Shown: positions 4,421-41,477 of the stretch, piece by piece
How the letters are laid out: every line of letters begins with the position of its first letter
Numbering within the stretch: position 1 is the first letter of the stretch
Origin: Sagittula stellata E-37
Lineage (GTDB): Bacteria > Pseudomonadota > Alphaproteobacteria > Rhodobacterales > Rhodobacteraceae
Direction: 5' to 3'
Length of the DNA stretch: 64,000 bases
Assembly: GCF_039724765.1 (NCBI RefSeq)
Contig: NZ_CP155731.1
Coordinates: 119,378-183,377 of the forward strand
Program-made: the position numbers and the translations under genes
The notes under the pieces: generated by a model
Seen by the model: the letters and a program-made list of their open reading frames with translations, nothing else
Database searches by the model: none
Told to the model about the DNA's origin: nothing

Positions 4421-5475
4421 TGACCGACACCAGCACTGGAGAAGGACGGCAGATGCCGTCCTTCCCCCCATGGGCCAAGAAGACCCTGGGGACCGTAGCC
4501 ACCGTTGCCGCGACCATCCTCGGTCTGCTCTTCGTGACCTTCATGATCGGCCGGGTGATGCCGATCGACCCCGTTCTGGCCGTCATCGGCGAACGGGCGA
4601 CACAGGCGCAATACAACGCCACCTATCTCGAACTCGGACTCGACAAGCCGCTGCTGGTGCAGTTCGGCATCTACGTGAACGACGTGCTGCACGGCGACCT
4701 CGGACGGTCGATCCGCACCGGGCAGGAAGTCACCACCGACATCGCCCGCGTCTTTCCCGCGACACTGGAACTGGCCACACTCGGCACGCTGCTCGGCGTC
4801 GTGCTCGGCGTGCCGCTGGGGGTCATCGCCGCCGTCAAGCGCGGAAGCTGGATCGACCAGCTCGCCCGGTTCGTCGGCCTCATCGGGTATTCCATGCCGA
4901 TCTTCTGGCTGGGCCTCGTCGGCCTTCTGGTGTTCTACGGCATCCTGGGCTGGGTCGCGGGCCCCGGACGGCTCGGCATCTTCTACCAGGGCATCGTCGA
5001 ACCGATCACCGGCATGCTGCTGATCGACTCGGCGCTACGCGGCGAATGGACCGTGTTCAAGGACGCCTTTTCGCACATCATCCTGCCCGCCTCGCTGCTG
5101 GGCTACTACTCCATGGCCTACATCAGCCGCATGACCCGATCCTTCATGCTGGAGCAACTGAACTCCGAATACGTGACCACCGCCCGCGTGAAGGGCCTGT
5201 CCGAACGCAAGGTGATCTGGGGCCATGCCTTCCGCAACATCCGCATCCAGCTGGTGACGGTGATCGCTCTGGCCTACGCCAATCTGCTCGAAGGCTCCGT
5301 GCTGACGGAAATCATCTTCGCCTGGCCCGGCATCGGCCAGTACATCACCACCTCGCTGCTCGCCAACGACATGAACTCCGTGCTCGGCGGCACCATCGTG
5401 ATCGGCACCATCTTCGTGGGCATCAACATCTTCTCCGACCTGCTCTACCGCTTCTTCGATCCGAGGGCCAAATGA
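4420..5475 (+). CDS. Peptide ABC transporter permease (DppB-like)
   Basis: A 351-residue inner-membrane permease. It has an N-terminal transmembrane helix, the DppB-type periplasmic segment containing GLDKPLLVQFGIYVNDVLHGDLG, several further helices, and the EAA-type cytoplasmic loop YVTTARVKGLSERKVIWGHAFRN that docks the ATPase. Its ATG shares one base with the upstream TAA (TAATG), so it is translationally coupled to the binding protein. The product is slightly longer at the N-terminus than typical DppB (extra TSTGEGRQMPSFPPWAKKT segment); a second ATG about 11 codons in could be the true start. Confidence 0.92.
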   Translation: MTDTSTGEGRQMPSFPPWAKKTLGTVATVAATILGLLFVTFMIGRVMPIDPVLAVIGERATQAQYNATYLELGLDKPLLVQFGIYVNDVLHGDLGRSIRTGQEVTTDIARVFPATLELATLGTLLGVVLGVPLGVIAAVKRGSWIDQLARFVGLIGYSMPIFWLGLVGLLVFYGILGWVAGPGRLGIFYQGIVEPITGMLLIDSALRGEWTVFKDAFSHIILPASLLGYYSMAYISRMTRSFMLEQLNSEYVTTARVKGLSERKVIWGHAFRNIRIQLVTVIALAYANLLEGSVLTEIIFAWPGIGQYITTSLLANDMNSVLGGTIVIGTIFVGINIFSDLLYRFFDPRAK

Positions 5476-6383
5476 CCGACACGACCCTCCGCGCATGGCT
5501 CCTGAGCGACGAGCCGACCTCCCGCCGGCAGGCCCGCTTCTCGTCGTGGTACAAGGGCTGGCTGACCTTCCGGTCGAACCCGCTGGCGATGCTGGGCCTG
5601 ATCGTGCTGGTGGTGCTGATCCTCGCCGCGATCTTCGCACCGCTGCTGGCGACGGACGATCCCTTTGCCCAGGACCTCGGCGCGCGCCTGCTTGCACCCG
5701 GAGAGCAGGGCCACATCTTCGGCACCGACAGCCTGGGCCGCGACATCTATTCCCGCCTGCTCTACGGCGCGCGGATCTCGCTCTACATCGTGCTGCTCGT
5801 CGCCATGGTGGCGCCGCTCGTCGGGCTGATCATGGGCACCGTTTCGGGCTATGCGGGCGGCTGGGTGGACGTGATCCTGATGCGGATCACCGACATCTTC
5901 CTCGCCTTCCCGCGGCTGATCCTCGCGCTGGCTTTCGTCGCCGCCCTCGGCGCAGGGATCGAGAACGCGGTGCTGGCGATCTCGCTCACCGCCTGGCCGC
6001 CCTACGCCCGCATTGCCCGGGCCGAAACGCTGACCATCCGCAACTCCGACTACATCCACGCCGTCCGCCTGCAGGGCGCGGGACCGTTCCGCATCGTCAC
6101 CAAACACATCTGGCCGCTCTGCATCTCGTCGCTGGTGATCCGGGTGACGCTCGACATGGCGGGCATCATCCTGACCGCCGCAGGTCTGGGCTTCCTCGGG
6201 CTCGGCGCGCAGCCGCCCTCGCCGGAATGGGGGGCGATGATCTCCGAAGGGCGCAAGTACATCCTCGATTACTGGTGGGTCGCCACGATCCCCGGCATCG
6301 CGATCTTCGCCATCTCGCTCGCCTTCAACCTGCTGGGCGACGGCCTGCGCGACGTGCTCGACCCGAAGGAGGGCAACACATGA
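5472..6383 (+). CDS. Peptide ABC transporter permease (DppC-like)
   Basis: A 303-residue permease forming the second half of the transmembrane channel. It contains the OppC-type N-terminal helix (NPLAMLGLIVLVVLILAAIF), the diagnostic HIFGTDSLGRDIYSRLLYGAR stretch, and the EAA loop YIHAVRLQGAGPFRIVTKHI. The start is the ATG overlapping the DppB stop (ATGA). A much longer frame is open upstream on the same strand but is out of register with DppB and carries no recognisable protein, so it was ignored. Confidence 0.92.
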   Translation: MTDTTLRAWLLSDEPTSRRQARFSSWYKGWLTFRSNPLAMLGLIVLVVLILAAIFAPLLATDDPFAQDLGARLLAPGEQGHIFGTDSLGRDIYSRLLYGARISLYIVLLVAMVAPLVGLIMGTVSGYAGGWVDVILMRITDIFLAFPRLILALAFVAALGAGIENAVLAISLTAWPPYARIARAETLTIRNSDYIHAVRLQGAGPFRIVTKHIWPLCISSLVIRVTLDMAGIILTAAGLGFLGLGAQPPSPEWGAMISEGRKYILDYWWVATIPGIAIFAISLAFNLLGDGLRDVLDPKEGNT

Positions 6384-7243
6384 CCGAAGCGCCCCTGCTC
6401 GACGTCGAAAACCTCTGGGTGAAGTTCCACACCCGCACAGGCATCGTCGATGCCGTGCGCGGCATCTCCTTCACGCTCGGCCGCGAACGGCTGGGCATCG
6501 TCGGCGAAAGCGGCTCGGGCAAGTCGATGACCGGCCGCGCCGTCCTGCGTCTGATCCACCCGCCGGGCCAGGTGACCGCCGACAAGCTGCAGGTGCACGG
6601 CGAGGACGTCATGACCATGCCGGACGCGCGCATGCGCCAGCTGCGCGGCGGGCGCGTGTCGATGGTCATGCAGGACCCCAAGTTCTCGCTGAACCCTGTG
6701 ATGCCCGTCGGCCAGCAACTGATCGAGGCGCTCCGCGCCCACGAGAAAGTGTCGAAGGCCGAGGCCCGCAAACGCGCGCTCGACATGCTGGACGAAGTCG
6801 CCATCCGCGACCCCGCCCGGGTCATGGACCTCTACCCGCACGAGGTCTCAGGCGGCATGGGCCAGCGGATCATGATCGCCATGATGCTGCTGCCCAACCC
6901 CGAAATCCTGATCGCGGACGAGCCGACCTCCGCGCTCGACGTCTCGGTGCAGCTTCAGGTGCTCGATATCATGGACAAGCTGGTGAAGGACCGCGGCATG
7001 GGCCTGATGTTCATCAGCCACGACCTGAACCTGGTGGCCAAGTTCTGCGACCGCATCGCGGTGATGTACGCCGGACGGATCGTCGAAACCTGCAAGGCGT
7101 CCGAGCTGCGCAACGCGCAACACCCCTACACGCTGGGCCTGCTGAACTCAGTGCCCGACCTCGAACACCCCCGCGACAGGCTGGAGGTGCTGAAACGCGA
7201 TCCCGCCTGGCGCGAGGCCGCTTCCGTGAGTGCCCGGACATGA
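6380..7243 (+). CDS. Peptide ABC transporter ATP-binding protein (DppD-like)
   Basis: A 287-residue ATPase. Motifs: Walker [10 protein letters not shown] near residue 40, Q-loop [10 protein letters not shown], signature [12 protein letters not shown] (Met in place of the common Gln), Walker [13 protein letters not shown], switch FISHDLNLV, and the oligopeptide-family C-terminal tail [14 protein letters not shown]. The Cys-rich iron-sulfur-like tail of some DppD proteins is absent. Start chosen at the ATGA overlap with the permease. It pairs with the following ATPase to form the nucleotide-binding heterodimer. Confidence 0.9.
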
Positions 7244-35867: not shown

Positions 35868-36095
35868 CGGATGCCTCCTGTCCTGCCGGTTCGGGCCGGG
35901 CCGCAGCCCGGAGACCCCGTTTAGAGCCTTGCGGGGGGGTGCGCCAAGAGGTGAAATGCCGTCGGGCAAAGAGTTGCGGACCGGGTTCCGGCGACGTTCA
36001 ATCAAAGAAAGTGATGTGTGGGCTTGCTCGGCACGCGAAATGCTACACATAACGTGGATCAGTGTAGCGCACGTGCAAGGGACCCACTGGACGGA

Positions 36096-36632
36096 ATGAG
36101 TAGCGACATTCTGCCTGCTAAGTTGCAGGCGTATATCGAGAAGTCGGGGATCGCATTGTCCCTTTCGACGCAGGGCGGCGACGTGCCGCTTGCGTTGGTC
36201 AACGACGGATTCACCAAGCTGACGGGCTACGCGCCGGAAGAGGTGGTCGGGCGCAACTGCCGTTTTCTGCAGGGCGAGGAAACCTCGGCCGAGCAGAAGC
36301 AGGCGCTGCACGATTTCGTCCATGACCTGTCGCAGGACAGCGGGCGCTTTCCCGTTTCGAACTACCGCAAGGACGGATCGTTGTTCCGAAACTTCGTCCT
36401 GATGACACGGCTGCGCGACAGCGCGGGACAAACGCGGTTCATCCTCGCGTCGCAATTCGACATGACCAGAGCGCAGCAGCGTCAGGAACTGGTGGAGCAC
36501 GATGCCCGCCTGAGGCGCAACCTCAGCGATATCGAGGTCATGGGGCAGGAATTCGGACTCGCGATGCAGGGATCGGCCCAGTCTATCGCGGATTCCATCG
36601 CCCTTATTGCAAAGCTGTATCTCGATGAATGA
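36096..36632 (+). CDS. Short LOV-domain blue-light receptor
   Basis: A 178-residue single-domain flavoprotein. Residues about 14-130 form a LOV/PAS fold with the hallmark GRNCRFLQG, where Cys55 should form the photo-adduct with FMN; NYRKDGSLFRNFV and the glutamine in ILASQFDMT are the other flavin contacts. A helical C-terminus (about 130-178) could dimerise or dock a partner. It has no output domain. It ends 8 bases into the histidine kinase gene, so the two are translationally coupled, suggesting the LOV protein feeds light information to that kinase. Start: ATG at 36096; a start 26 codons upstream is possible but lacks similarity. Confidence 0.9.
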   Translation: MSSDILPAKLQAYIEKSGIALSLSTQGGDVPLALVNDGFTKLTGYAPEEVVGRNCRFLQGEETSAEQKQALHDFVHDLSQDSGRFPVSNYRKDGSLFRNFVLMTRLRDSAGQTRFILASQFDMTRAQQRQELVEHDARLRRNLSDIEVMGQEFGLAMQGSAQSIADSIALIAKLYLDE

Positions 36633-39600
36633 GGGCAGGGCCGTGGATCAGGACGTAGAGCAGCAGCAGGGCCCCATCGAAGGAGAGACGTTGTTTGTCG
36701 TGGGCGTCGGCGCCTCGGCCGGCGGGCTGGAGGCGCTGCGCGACATGCTGAGCACCGCCGGACAGGACTGCCGGCTGGCCTTCGTGGTGATCCAGCACCT
36801 CGATCCCAACCACGAAAGCCTTCTGGCCGAGCTGCTGGGCCGCCACACCACGCTGGAGGTGCGCCAGACCGAAGATGGCGAACGTGTGCGCCCGGGCTGC
36901 GTGCACATCATTCCGCCGGGCCACGGGCTGTCGATTCACAAGGGTGTGCTGAATCTGACGGATTTCGCGCAGCCGCGCGGTCTGAGGCGACCAATCGACG
37001 ATTTTTTCGAAAGCCTTGCACAGGACATGGGCCGCGATGCCGCCTGCGTGATCCTGTCGGGCACCGGCGCGGATGGCAGTGCCGGGCTGAGGGCGATCAA
37101 GGAACACGGCGGGCTGTGCGTCGTGCAGGATCCGGCGACGGCCAAGTACGACGGGATGCCGACATCGGCCCAGTCCACGGGGCTGGTGGACTTCGTCCTG
37201 CGGCCCGGGGAAATCGCCGAGACCATCCAGCAGTTCTTTGCCAAGTCGGTCTCGAACGGGGCGGAAGGCGAACTGGCGCGGACCGTCGAAGAGACGCTGG
37301 ACGACATCTGTGCGGTGGTGCGGAAGACCGCCGGACACGACTTTTCCGGCTACAAGAAATCGACTCTGTCGCGGCGGGTGCAGCGGCGCATCCAGGTGCT
37401 CGACCTCAACGACGCCAATGCCTACCTGCGCTACATTCGCTCCACGCCCGACGAATGCGAGATCCTTTTCCGCGAACTGCTGATCAACGTGACCCGGTTC
37501 TTCCGCGACCCGGCGCATTTCGAGGTGCTTCGGCAGAAGGTGGTGAAGCCGCTGGTGCGCAACTCCAGCAAGGAAGAGATCCGCGTCTGGGTGCCGGGTT
37601 GTTCCAGCGGCGAAGAGGCCTACACCATCGCGATGATCTTTGCCGAGGAAGTGCGCGAGCAGCGGCGGACCATCGACATCCAGGTCTTCGCGACCGATAT
37701 CGACGAACAGATGCTGCGGATTGCGCGCAACGGTCTGTATCCCAACGCTGCCATGGCGGACATCCCCGAGGAAATGCGCGAGATGTACACCATCGCGCGG
37801 GACGGCAAGTTCCAGGTCAGTTCGCGCATCCGCGAGATGATCCGTTTTTCGGTGCACAGCGTCGTCCGCGATCCGCCGTTCTCCAGTATCGACCTGCTGT
37901 CCTGCCGCAACTTGCTGATCTATTTCGGCGACCAGTTGCAGGCGGCTGTCATGCCGATCTTCCATTATGCGCTGCGCCCCGGCGGGGCGCTGTACCTCGG
38001 CCCGTCCGAGACGCTGGGTCGCCACGATCGTCTGTTCCAAACCATCGACGCTCAGGCACGGATCTTCGAACGCAACGACGCGCGTCCGGAGTACCCCCTT
38101 CACCTGCGCCACCAGCCTCAGCGAAGTGACCGTCGGCGGCAGCCCGACGAGGACACCAACCGGAACGCCACGCGCGTCGACTGGTCCGACAGCACCGTGA
38201 CCGAACGCATTCTGGACGTCTATGGCCCGGCCACGCTGCAGGTGACGCGCGAAGGCGAGGTGCTTCGGTCCACGGGACGACTGGGCCGATATCTTGAGAT
38301 GCAGCCGATGCGCCAGTCGTCGACGCAGTTCGCGTCGTCGCTCGCTCTGCCCGGCGTGCGAGAGGCGATTTCGGCCATCGTGCGGCAGGTCGCGCAGTCG
38401 GGAAAACGCACGATCAGCCGTGATCTGACCGCAAATTCGGAGTTCGGCAAACAGCGCTTCGATCTGATAGGCGATCCTCTGGCCGACGGCACCGTTCTTC
38501 TGGTCTTCCGCGAGCGTGACCGCTTCGACCCCGGGGCCGAGGACGAGCTTCAGGACGTCGACGCCGCCGACAGCCATGTGCAGAGCCTCGAAAACGAGCT
38601 GCGCTCCACCCGGGCGCGACTGCACACCACGGTCGAGGAACTGGAGACCGCGAACGAGGAGCTCAAGAGTTCGAACGAAGAAATGATGTCGATGAACGAA
38701 GAGCTCCAGTCGACCAACGAGGAGCTTGCGACCGTCAACGATGAACTGAAAGACAAGGTCGACGAGCTGTCTGTCGCCAGCGCCGACTTGTCCAACTTCT
38801 TTGCCTCCACCTCGTTGCCGCTGGTGGTGCTGGATGCCGAAGGCTGCATCCGGAATTTCACCGACGCGATCCAGTCTGTCTACCCGCTGCGCCATGGCGA
38901 CCGCGGGCGCCCGCTGTCGGAAATGACCAGCCGCATCGGCGAGGATGCAAAGGTGCTGGCCGCGATCGAGACAGTGATGGAGCAGGGCGACGTCGCGGCC
39001 GTGACGGTGATGGCCCCGGACTCTCTCAGGACATGGTCGCTGCTGGTCACGCCCTACCGCAACCGCGACGATCGGATCGACGGGGTGACGCTGGTCTTCT
39101 CCGAACTGACGGAGGCGCTTGCCCTCGAGGACGAGCTGAAGGCAGAGGGCGAACGCCTGCGCATGGCGCTGGACGTGGCCGGTCTGGGCGTCTGGGAACT
39201 GTCGAGCACCGGGGACACGATCCGTTTCGATACCATTGGCGCAAAGCTATTGGGGGTCGGAGACGAGGAGATGCCGGTCGGTGAATTCCTCGGTCACCTT
39301 CCGGAAGAAGATTGGGCTGACGCGGAGGAGGCGCTGGACAACAGCGACACCCGCTTGCCGTTCTCGCTGACCTTCAACCTGCCAGGGTCCGAAAATGAGC
39401 AGGCTCGATCCGTGCAGCTTGTCGGGCGGCGTCTGAACCGGAGCCAGGGTCTCCGGACCCTCGGTGTGATCTTCGACGTCACCGAGGAGGAAGAGGCGCG
39501 GCAGGTCCGCGAGGTGATGCTGCACGAGATGAACCATCGGGTGAAGAACCTGTTCTCGATCATCTCGGGCATGGTGCGGATTGCCGGGCATTCGGCGCAA

Positions 39601-40086
39601 TCCGTCCCGGACCTCGTGGAGGGCGTGACGGCGCGGATCGGGGCGCTGGCGGTTTCCCACAACCTGACTCACCGTGCTCCGGCGGGTACGCCGCTGAAAC
39701 TGAGCGACGCGGTCGAAAGCGCGGTGGAACCCTATGCCGGTCATGCGTCCCTGACGGTGCAGGGGCCGGTCGTGCCCCTGACGGCGGAAACGCTGACGAC
39801 ATTGTCGCTGATGTTCCACGAACTGGCGACGAACACCGCGAAGTACGGAGTGCTGGGAGCCGTGGACGGCAGCCTGTCCGTCACGTGGTCTTTGGAGCAC
39901 GATACCGAAGTCGTGCTCGAATGGACGGAACGATATGACGCCCCGGCGGTTGAACTTCCGCAAGACAAGAAGGGGTTCGGCTCCACGCTGATGCAAATGT
40001 CCGCCGCACAACTGGACGGACGCATCGAAGTGGAACAGACCGAATGGATGCGCAGGACACGGCTGATTTATGAAAACAAGAAATGA
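36625..40086 (+). CDS. CheB-CheR-PAS-HWE histidine kinase fusion
   Basis: An 1153-residue protein. Residues about 20-205 are a CheB methylesterase with catalytic Ser31 (GASAGG), His58 (QHLDPN) and Asp150 (GTGADGS) intact but without a receiver. About 225-500 is a CheR methyltransferase (SAM site VPGCSSGEEAYTIAM). A coiled coil of TNEELxS-type repeats spans about 650-730, then two PAS domains (about 735-850 and 860-960), then an HWE kinase: phospho-His candidate His971 in HEMNHRVKNLFSII, and HELATNTAKYGVL plus VVLEWTERYD. No chemotaxis genes are nearby. Overlaps the LOV gene upstream and the receiver gene downstream. An internal GTG at 36643 has a better ribosome site. Confidence 0.93.
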   Translation: MNEGRAVDQDVEQQQGPIEGETLFVVGVGASAGGLEALRDMLSTAGQDCRLAFVVIQHLDPNHESLLAELLGRHTTLEVRQTEDGERVRPGCVHIIPPGHGLSIHKGVLNLTDFAQPRGLRRPIDDFFESLAQDMGRDAACVILSGTGADGSAGLRAIKEHGGLCVVQDPATAKYDGMPTSAQSTGLVDFVLRPGEIAETIQQFFAKSVSNGAEGELARTVEETLDDICAVVRKTAGHDFSGYKKSTLSRRVQRRIQVLDLNDANAYLRYIRSTPDECEILFRELLINVTRFFRDPAHFEVLRQKVVKPLVRNSSKEEIRVWVPGCSSGEEAYTIAMIFAEEVREQRRTIDIQVFATDIDEQMLRIARNGLYPNAAMADIPEEMREMYTIARDGKFQVSSRIREMIRFSVHSVVRDPPFSSIDLLSCRNLLIYFGDQLQAAVMPIFHYALRPGGALYLGPSETLGRHDRLFQTIDAQARIFERNDARPEYPLHLRHQPQRSDRRRQPDEDTNRNATRVDWSDSTVTERILDVYGPATLQVTREGEVLRSTGRLGRYLEMQPMRQSSTQFASSLALPGVREAISAIVRQVAQSGKRTISRDLTANSEFGKQRFDLIGDPLADGTVLLVFRERDRFDPGAEDELQDVDAADSHVQSLENELRSTRARLHTTVEELETANEELKSSNEEMMSMNEELQSTNEELATVNDELKDKVDELSVASADLSNFFASTSLPLVVLDAEGCIRNFTDAIQSVYPLRHGDRGRPLSEMTSRIGEDAKVLAAIETVMEQGDVAAVTVMAPDSLRTWSLLVTPYRNRDDRIDGVTLVFSELTEALALEDELKAEGERLRMALDVAGLGVWELSSTGDTIRFDTIGAKLLGVGDEEMPVGEFLGHLPEEDWADAEEALDNSDTRLPFSLTFNLPGSENEQARSVQLVGRRLNRSQGLRTLGVIFDVTEEEEARQVREVMLHEMNHRVKNLFSIISGMVRIAGHSAQSVPDLVEGVTARIGALAVSHNLTHRAPAGTPLKLSDAVESAVEPYAGHASLTVQGPVVPLTAETLTTLSLMFHELATNTAKYGVLGAVDGSLSVTWSLEHDTEVVLEWTERYDAPAVELPQDKKGFGSTLMQMSAAQLDGRIEVEQTEWMRRTRLIYENKK

Positions 40087-40477
40087 TATGGCCGATGGGC
40101 AGCAGGGCGTCGTTTTGCTGTGCGAGGACGAAGCGATCGTCGCAATGGACATCCAGATGATGATCGAGGATGGCGGCTTCGAGGTTTGCGGACCGTTCTC
40201 CCGTGTGTCCGTCGCCCTCGACGCGCTTGAGGATGTCGTTCCGGTGGCTGCCGTTCTGGACGTGCGCCTGCGGGACGGCGATATCTTTCCGGTCGCCGAA
40301 CAGCTCGACCAGGCCGGTGTGCCGCTGATCTTCCATTCCGGCCACCTGATCGAGGATGAGGTCGTCGCGCGCTTTCCTCGCGCGCAGCACTGCCCCAAGC
40401 CGACCAACGCCCGCACACTGATGCAGGCACTCTCCCGCGCCGCGTCCGAATGTGTCCGCGAACGGGCAGCGGGCTGA
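40070..40477 (+). CDS. Single-domain response regulator
   Basis: A 129- to 135-residue receiver with no output domain. From the ATG at 40088 the phospho-acceptor is Asp58 (AAVLDVRLRDGD); the acidic pair CEDEA and the conserved lysine (HCPKPTN) are present, and the switch residue is in LIFHSGH. The outer start (40070) overlaps the kinase gene by 17 bases; the inner start is two bases after the kinase stop. Tight coupling makes it the likely phosphorylation target of the HWE kinase. Lone receivers downstream of HWE kinases often act as phosphate sinks or through protein contacts. Confidence 0.9.
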   Translation: MKTRNDMADGQQGVVLLCEDEAIVAMDIQMMIEDGGFEVCGPFSRVSVALDALEDVVPVAAVLDVRLRDGDIFPVAEQLDQAGVPLIFHSGHLIEDEVVARFPRAQHCPKPTNARTLMQALSRAASECVRERAAG

Positions 40478-40589: not shown

Positions 40590-41477
40590 ATGGAACTGCG
40601 CAGGCTTCGGTATTTTCTGGCGGTGGCCGAGGAACTGCACTTCGGCCGCGCCGCGTCGCGGCTGGAGATCGCCCAGCCTCCATTGTCCCGCCAGATCGCC
40701 GCGCTGGAGGCGGAGATCGGTGCCCAGCTTTTCGACCGCTCCCGCAGCCAGATCCGCAAGACGCAGGCGGGCGAGGTGCTGGAAAGGCACGCCCGCGCAT
40801 TGGTCGACCGGCTTGAAGCCGCCTACAAGGAAACCCGCCAGGTCGGTGAGGGCGGTGTCGGGCGGCTGCGCGTGGCCTTCGTCGGATCGGCGTCGCACGG
40901 GGTGCTGCCCAATCTCATAAAGTCTTATCGGTCCTTCTATCCCAAGGTGGAGCTTGCGCTGTCGGCGATGAACAATGCCGAGCTGCACTCCGCCCTGGTC
41001 CAGCGGGAAATCGACGTGGCCGTCGCCCGGCCCAGCCTGAAGGACGACGAACTGAAGCGCGAACCCCTCGCGCAGGAAGACCTGATCCTTGCCATCCCGG
41101 ACAGCAGCGAACTGGCGACGCGGGACAAGATTGTGTTTTCCGAACTGGGGAACCAGACCTTCGTGCTCTACCCGCGCAGACCGCGGCCCAGCTATGCGGA
41201 TTTCGTGCTGAGCTTTTGCCGGAAGGAGGGGTTCGAACCGGCGGCGCTGGAGCTGGCGCAGGATTATCAGACGGCGATCAGCCTCGTGTCGGTGGGGGTT
41301 GGGATCTCTGTCGTGCCGGAGAGCGTGTCGCGGACCTCGCGCCCCGGCGTTCTGTTCCGCAGCTACGAGGGCTACAACCCCGGGACCGCCCTGACCATCC
41401 ATGCCCGGCGCGACAACCAGTCGGCGCAGGTGGCACAGTTCTTCGACGTGGCGCGGAAGTTCAGGCGCGGGCGCTGA
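40590..41477 (+). CDS. LysR-family regulator
   Basis: A 295-residue LysR protein of the BenM/CatM-like type: ELRRLRYFLAVAEELHFGRA, then LEIAQPPLSRQIAALEAEIG as the DNA-binding part and an effector domain from about residue 90. It sits upstream of nadABC in the same direction, 176 bp away, and downstream of the receiver gene. It has no divergent partner, so its target cannot be assigned; a role in nad regulation is possible but unsupported beyond position. Confidence 0.85.
   Translation: MELRRLRYFLAVAEELHFGRAASRLEIAQPPLSRQIAALEAEIGAQLFDRSRSQIRKTQAGEVLERHARALVDRLEAAYKETRQVGEGGVGRLRVAFVGSASHGVLPNLIKSYRSFYPKVELALSAMNNAELHSALVQREIDVAVARPSLKDDELKREPLAQEDLILAIPDSSELATRDKIVFSELGNQTFVLYPRRPRPSYADFVLSFCRKEGFEPAALELAQDYQTAISLVSVGVGISVVPESVSRTSRPGVLFRSYEGYNPGTALTIHARRDNQSAQVAQFFDVARKFRRGR

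Follow-up and report, generated by a model that had tools for sequence, protein, structure and literature searches.

The window, a 64,000-nt stretch at the end of a 183-kb contig (NZ_CP155731.1, positions 119,378 to 183,377) of the 5.3-Mb genome of Sagittula stellata E-37, holds at positions 36096-40477, on the plus strand, a three-gene module for a short LOV (light-oxygen-voltage) photoreceptor, a CheB-CheR histidine kinase of the HWE type and a lone receiver. We put at roughly 70% the probability that the LOV protein, which resembles RsLOV of Rhodobacter sphaeroides, is a detachable light subunit of the HWE kinase and that this kinase phosphorylates the co-encoded receiver. The genes are present with intact active-site residues, their linkage is conserved, and the divergence of LOV and kinase matches. 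A short LOV gene lies alongside this kinase, often with a small receiver gene, in many alphaproteobacteria; the order LOV-kinase-receiver was found in Sagittula, Sphingobium, Sphingomonas, Novosphingobium, Rhizobium and Neorhizobium. Published systems are cited here from excerpts of the open-access literature, in which no description of a module of LOV, CheB-CheR-HWE kinase and receiver was found, in agreement with an earlier sequence-only reading of this DNA that knew of no described system with exactly these parts.

From this arrangement we infer flavin binding, LOV-kinase contact, a direction of the light effect, phosphotransfer, methylation and an output. Blue light would form an adduct at Cys55 of the LOV protein, which would bind flavin mononucleotide (FMN), and alter its oligomeric or helical state. 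The LOV protein would then bind or leave the kinase, most likely around the coil or the PAS domains, setting the activity of the HWE kinase, which would phosphorylate the co-encoded lone receiver. The receiver would hand phosphate onward or drain it, plausibly in the direction of the PhyR general stress network. With its CheB and CheR parts the kinase would reversibly methylate glutamates, most likely those of its own coil, resetting sensitivity in a form of adaptation.

Conserved linkage of the LOV and kinase genes

The window LOV protein (query P0001) had matches at E <= 1e-10 in 60 of 295 genomes of the family; 20 of these places, chosen mainly for short open frames, were examined and 12 adjoined a homologue of the window kinase (query P0002). 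The kinase search of the 295 genomes, with at most two candidates per genome, gave at least 83 matches in 71 genomes. A short LOV gene adjoined 17 of the 24 best matches, 7 on the same strand and 10 divergently, so the neighbourhood recurs in other Rhodobacteraceae, where the sequence-only reading had proposed to search for it. None of the 29 lower-scoring CheB-CheR homologues examined (of 59; 1.4 to 6 kb on each side) had a LOV gene; 17/24 against 0/29 gave a Fisher p = 1e-8, uncorrected for kinship between genomes. Another 244 genomes drawn from the order, some of them already in the first set, yielded 20 new places. Of these, 13 were same-strand pairs, one was a divergent pair and five were solitary short LOVs; the last was a LOV within a 927-aa (amino acid) frame. 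The first possible kinase start was at most 134 nt from the LOV stop in 18 of the 20 same-strand pairs, and all four Sagittula genomes examined (G000, G262, G465 and G466) held the LOV-kinase pair. At least 80 loci of LOV relatives were examined in named genomes; the divergent pair was present in Frigidibacter oleivorans, Tropicimonas sp. IMCC34011, Loktanella fryxellensis and a Rhodobacteraceae metagenome-assembled genome, and the other 75 loci listed contained no full-length kinase of the window type, six of them having partial P0002 matches above 90 bits. In Cereibacter ovatus JA234 (L129, about 4558-6528), open LOV and receiver frames flank kinase fragments.

Relatives of the window LOV were also present in 120 plasmid records. 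In all of the best 12 of the 120, which came from three orders, LOV, kinase and receiver genes lay on one strand in this order. They belonged to two Sagittula, four Novosphingobium (two of one species), Sphingobium yanoikuyae, Sphingomonas sp. R1, S. parapaucimobilis, Rhizobium rhizoryzae, Neorhizobium sp. NCHU2750 and Rhizobium sp. CC-CFT758, the last with its kinase split into frames. On the two Sagittula plasmids the module had 86-89% protein identity, with tex before it and a LysR gene after it. Hits 17 and 20, taken for contrast, encoded LOV proteins of 366-378 aa and no CheB-CheR kinase.

The kinase tree had 42 rows: the 37 kinases examined and 5 from the set of 29 homologues that scored lower. 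The 20 same-strand-paired kinases grouped together in a clade (99/98), as did the 11 divergently paired kinases (100/100), and neither clade contained an unpaired row. The nearest neighbours of both clades were unpaired kinases, and the clades were not sisters in the drawn tree. Fourteen of the paired rows (31 in all) came from the LOV search and so are no test of pairing; the other 17 were found via the kinase alone, and 17/17 were paired. LOV and kinase distances were correlated in the same-strand group (Mantel r 0.89, n=20) and in the divergent group (r 0.77, n=11), each with 0 of 5000 permutations reaching the observed value and with species relatedness not removed; part of this correlation is shared species history. 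In the LOV tree (72 rows), LOV kinases and DsLOV-like rows formed their own group (100/97), and three solitary LOVs fell inside the same-strand group. The pairing had either two origins or one origin followed by loss. That a split LOV protein serves the kinase and the kinase the receiver, as the sequence-only reading had proposed, is strongly supported as far as gene order, LOV-paired clades and matching divergence go.

Some observations weigh against this reading. Seven of the 24 best kinases (G134, G185, G280, G286, G230, G170 and G065) had no LOV gene in the stretch examined, three of these stretches being short (the G280 kinase runs off its contig, G185 has some 2 kb to either side of the kinase and G134 under 1 kb on one flank). 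No such kinase accompanied 14 of the 40 LOV-matched loci (8 solitary RsLOV-like, 4 shorter, L057 and L228). LOV loci thus occur without the kinase and kinases without LOV, showing that each part can exist alone. Among the 37 kinases, a receiver followed on the same strand in 26, lay on the opposite strand in 2 and was missing within 400 nt in 9. Cereibacter ovatus has retained the LOV and receiver genes with a broken kinase. Finally, the reported effects of an RsLOV mutant include photosynthesis and photo-oxidative genes, yet no reaction centre was found in 25 of the 37 carrier genomes, that of the window included.

The long-branched kinase L094 (genome G230) has in the place of the LOV gene an upstream bacteriophytochrome gene of PAS_2-GAF-PHY-HWE-receiver architecture, possibly a swap from blue- to red-light sensing; the two genes lie at L094 9138-11687 and 5466-8855.

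Parts of the module

The LOV gene (36096-36632, +) encodes 178 aa with the photoactive cysteine in the motif GRNCRFLQ (Cys55, codon 36258-36260). Its stop overlaps the start of the kinase gene by 8 nt (ATGAATGA, 36625-36632). The kinase gene (36625-40086, +; likely ATG at 36625; 1153 aa) in turn overlaps the receiver gene (40070-40477, +; 135 aa) by 17 nt, and the annotation of Sagittula sp. MA-2 has identical 8-nt and 17-nt overlaps. Open frames and domain calls thus bear out much of the sequence-only reading: three genes overlapping end to end, a LOV protein with Cys55 in a single LOV domain and no output domain, its stop 8 nt inside the kinase gene, a kinase with PAS domains and no LOV motif found in it, and a lone receiver with no output domain. 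The phospho-acceptor of the receiver, which had been given as Asp58, has that number when counted from the second ATG (40088); from the start at 40070 it is Asp64 (codon 40259-40261).

Cys55, Asn89, Asn99 and Gln120 were invariant among 16 aligned short LOVs, and the adduct cysteine was kept in 13/13 rows of a further LOV comparison. These are the adduct cysteine and the flavin-contacting residues expected of a photoactive LOV domain. Its AlphaFold2 model (35 sequences) had a mean predicted local distance difference test score (pLDDT) of 85.4, with 64-84 across the last 50 residues, and predicts an RsLOV-like fold with an N-cap and two C-terminal helices. The predicted single LOV domain with an N-cap, a C-terminal helical extension and no effector domain is the make-up of an RsLOV-type short LOV. 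The top five PDB matches in a fold search with the model were RsLOV chains (template modelling score 0.76-0.80, root-mean-square deviation 3.9-4.4). RsLOV (PDB 4HIA, 4HJ3, 4HJ4, 4HJ6, 7OB0 and 7OBZ) was the best full-length fold match, spanning the C-terminal helices at about 24% sequence identity. A close RsLOV homologue (L052, genome G051; 310 bits over 174 residues against 7OBZ) has a kinase of the window type and a receiver alongside and is divergent from the kinase, whereas the window LOV gene precedes its kinase on the same strand. The neighbourhood of RsLOV is taken here from this homologue.

According to one paper of 2022, no binding partners had been identified for PpSB1-LOV, PpSB2-LOV, RsLOV or DsLOV; RsLOV is reported there to dissociate in light (PMC9758184). 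Another describes an RsLOV mutant as more strongly pigmented and reports effects of RsLOV on photo-oxidative stress, chemotaxis and carbohydrate genes (PMC4335406). Short LOV proteins have been the subject of much study and serve as optogenetic tools, and RsLOV appears in the former paper without a known partner. The conserved neighbour kinase is one candidate partner for a short-LOV family, with the co-encoded receiver as readout, which makes the question testable by binding and phosphorylation assays. If the reading is true, a detachable light subunit is a natural design for light control of an HWE kinase without fusion.

At L222-L226, L046, L047 and L051, short LOVs belonging to the same broad family were solitary, the stretch examined containing no such kinase. 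Four LOVs of about 125 aa (L054, L055, L056 and L058), called DsLOV-like from their length, also had no such kinase alongside.

In the C-terminal half of the kinase, Pfam recognised a PAS_10 domain (residues 722-828, 38788-39108) and HWE_HK (residues 968-1048; 50.1 bits against a cut-off of 22.8). The HWE dimerisation and ATPase part spans 39526-40059, with the phospho-acceptor His971 at 39535-39537, and His971, Asn1070, Trp1100 and Glu1102 were present in 37/37 kinases. Pfam found a second PAS domain (residues about 850-951, 39172-39477) in homologues, though not in the window protein. An extra PAS-like domain is possible at residues 523-630 (38191-38514), where a low-confidence model coincides with a weak PAS match in the homologue L123. 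The AlphaFold2 model of the kinase was poor (mean pLDDT 58.7, predicted template modelling score 0.30, five sequences) and was used for the helix and strand pattern alone, as weak evidence.

The receiver had a weak Pfam match (22.5 bits against a cut-off of 30.2); response-regulator models of NCBIfam matched it with E values as low as 2e-13, yet under the model cut-offs. PhyR was present in 37/37 carrier genomes. Lone receivers of Caulobacter and Sphingomonas are described as shuttling phosphate between kinases or phosphotransferases and PhyR (PMC5964349, PMC5898713), so a link of this receiver to the PhyR general stress network is plausible by analogy. In the 64-kb window there was no EcfG-like site of the form GGAAC-N16/17-CGTT. 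Photosynthesis as the reason for the module was rejected, a reaction centre being found in 12 of the 37 carrier genomes and not in that of the window.

The glutamate-pair coil and the CheB and CheR domains

The N-terminal half of the kinase contains a CheB methylesterase domain (residues 26-201, 36700-37227) with Ser31, His58 and Asp150, followed by CheR_N (residues 225-273) and the CheR methyltransferase domain (residues 288-478), which binds S-adenosylmethionine (SAM); the CheR parts together span 37297-38058. These assignments rest on Pfam and residue alignment. The Ser/His/Asp set of CheB and Glu331, Asp358, Arg428 and Asn429 of CheR were present in 37/37 kinases, and the only deviation among the examined active-site residues was one Gly to Ala change in the SAM motif of CheR. 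The description of the CheB and CheR parts as complete in the sequence-only reading held for these active-site residues; Pfam found no receiver domain on CheB.

A helix was predicted with low confidence at residues 651-728. Within it lies a glutamate-pair heptad coil (residues 671-709, 38635-38751), a candidate methylation helix in which Glu-Glu-Leu/Met is repeated every seven residues. The 25-residue stretch with the highest conservation in the entire kinase is part of this coil (677-701) and not of an active site; the majority residue there averaged 96%, against 80% for the best stretch of that length elsewhere. At least three in-register pairs (Glu, Gln or Asp allowed) were present in 37/37 kinases and 29/29 lower-scoring CheB-CheR proteins, and shuffled versions of the window kinase reached three in 2/2000. 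The coil by itself, used as query against 31 genomes (E <= 1e-6), matched at 14 places, with CheR just ahead of the coil in 14/14; at 6 of them no PAS or HWE part was found within 3.1 kb of sequence. The window genome encodes 5 fused CheR proteins, of which 4 had the coil; it was missing from the other one (L248, 895 aa) and from a separate, ordinary stand-alone CheR. Two genes on contig C1 of the window genome (L237/L247 and L240/L245) encode CheR proteins of about 850 aa with the coil and with no PAS or HWE part found, indicating that the coil goes with CheR and not with the kinase.

Methylation sites of chemoreceptors are glutamate pairs spaced by seven residues. Matches to methyl-accepting chemotaxis proteins (MCPs) were absent from 8 of the 37 carrier genomes, five of these with the LOV pair (5/31), and a ninth genome (G149) had a single match below the family cut-off. 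Clear MCPs were present in 28 carrier genomes and any match in 29/37, with 11 in the window genome. CheB and CheR would need another substrate at least in the 8 genomes with no MCP match, and there the coil is the obvious candidate. They may act on the kinase itself and not on chemoreceptors. We tentatively suggest, at rather less than an even chance, that LOV switches the kinase in trans while the kinase's own CheR and CheB methylate and demethylate the coil, which separates them from the PAS and kinase parts, giving chemoreceptor-like adaptation without a chemoreceptor. If so, many CheB-CheR fusion proteins would form a general class of self-methylating sensors. The excerpts of the open-access literature contained no description of the substrate of CheB-CheR fusion kinases, and the coil offers a concrete candidate role for them.

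Alternative explanations and known systems

The LOV protein could act on another target, such as a repressor, and be merely co-regulated with a kinase and receiver that answer a different cue. In Pseudomonas mendocina, the short LOV protein PmSB-LOV likewise acts through the protein of a neighbouring gene, as anti-repressor of the adjacent regulator PmlR2 (PMC9758184); PmlR2 is a MerR-type repressor, whereas the candidate partner in the window is a kinase. A Crp/Fnr-type regulator gene (246 aa, Pfam) lies between LOV and kinase at L042 (8129-8869) and a similar 246-aa gene at L221 (7330-8070), and short LOVs also occur without the kinase. However, it is this kinase that recurs as the partner in three orders and in either strand arrangement, and co-regulation alone poorly explains two kinase clades with no unpaired member among the rows, so we regard this alternative as unlikely. 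A chance neighbourhood of unrelated genes, which the sequence-only reading had allowed for as an order unique to this genome, was rejected. Nothing was found in its favour, and it is ruled out for practical purposes by linkage in dozens of genomes, conserved across three orders, and by the comparison with lower-scoring CheB-CheR homologues.

The CheB and CheR parts could also act on ordinary chemoreceptors, the module then being an adaptor for phototaxis through which light would act on the flagellar pathway. Most carrier genomes, that of the window included, do have MCP matches; in Rhizobium rhizoryzae (L252, 1497-5732) the genes immediately upstream of the module encode MCPs, and in Rhizobium sp. 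CC-CFT758 (L253, 2600-5548) they are separate genes for CheR, CheB and a response regulator. Chemotaxis genes are among those affected by RsLOV (PMC4335406). The kinase genomes with no MCP match, and the separate CheR already present in the window genome, speak against a phototaxis adaptor, which we consider improbable, more so than a different LOV target. The preferred reading remains that of a LOV subunit controlling the kinase in trans.

In LovK, Brucella LOV-HK, EL346 and RT-HK, LOV and an HWE/HisKA2 kinase are described as one polypeptide, and LovK has a co-encoded lone receiver, LovR (PMC5964349). The module shares with them the proposed coupling of blue-light LOV sensing to an HWE-type kinase and by analogy may work like LovK-LovR with LOV in trans; unlike them, its LOV and kinase are two proteins and the kinase carries CheB, CheR and PAS parts. 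Classification of the window kinase as a LOV-HWE kinase was rejected, the defining LOV fusion having been tested for and found absent, with LOV in a separate gene. The alphaproteobacterial CheB-CheR fusion kinases (cheBR) share the CheB-CheR order and the glutamate-pair coil, but no short LOV was near any of the 29 lower-scoring homologues examined. The marine rhodobacterium Dinoroseobacter shibae has the LOV proteins LdaP (Dshi_1135) and DsLOV (PMC10890935, PMC4335406). As described, LdaP is a fused LOV-kinase-like antirepressor, unlike the separate LOV of the window, and DsLOV lacks the C-terminal extension that is predicted for the window LOV.

The module is flanked by tex (minus strand) before it and a LysR gene (40590-41477, Pfam) after it. 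Sigma-70 promoter and terminator scans gave signals near shuffle level. A perfect inverted repeat, GCTACAC-N13-GTGTAGC (window 36042-36068), ends 27 bases before the LOV start, and this 7-bp repeat was partially conserved in the two Sagittula plasmids. The genome G465 and the Sagittula sp. P11 plasmid share an identical 6-kb stretch. In Sagittula sp. P11 (L249, 7530-11381) kinase and receiver form one 1283-aa frame, with two genes in the close relative MA-2; the single frame could reflect either a true fusion or an error in the sequence.

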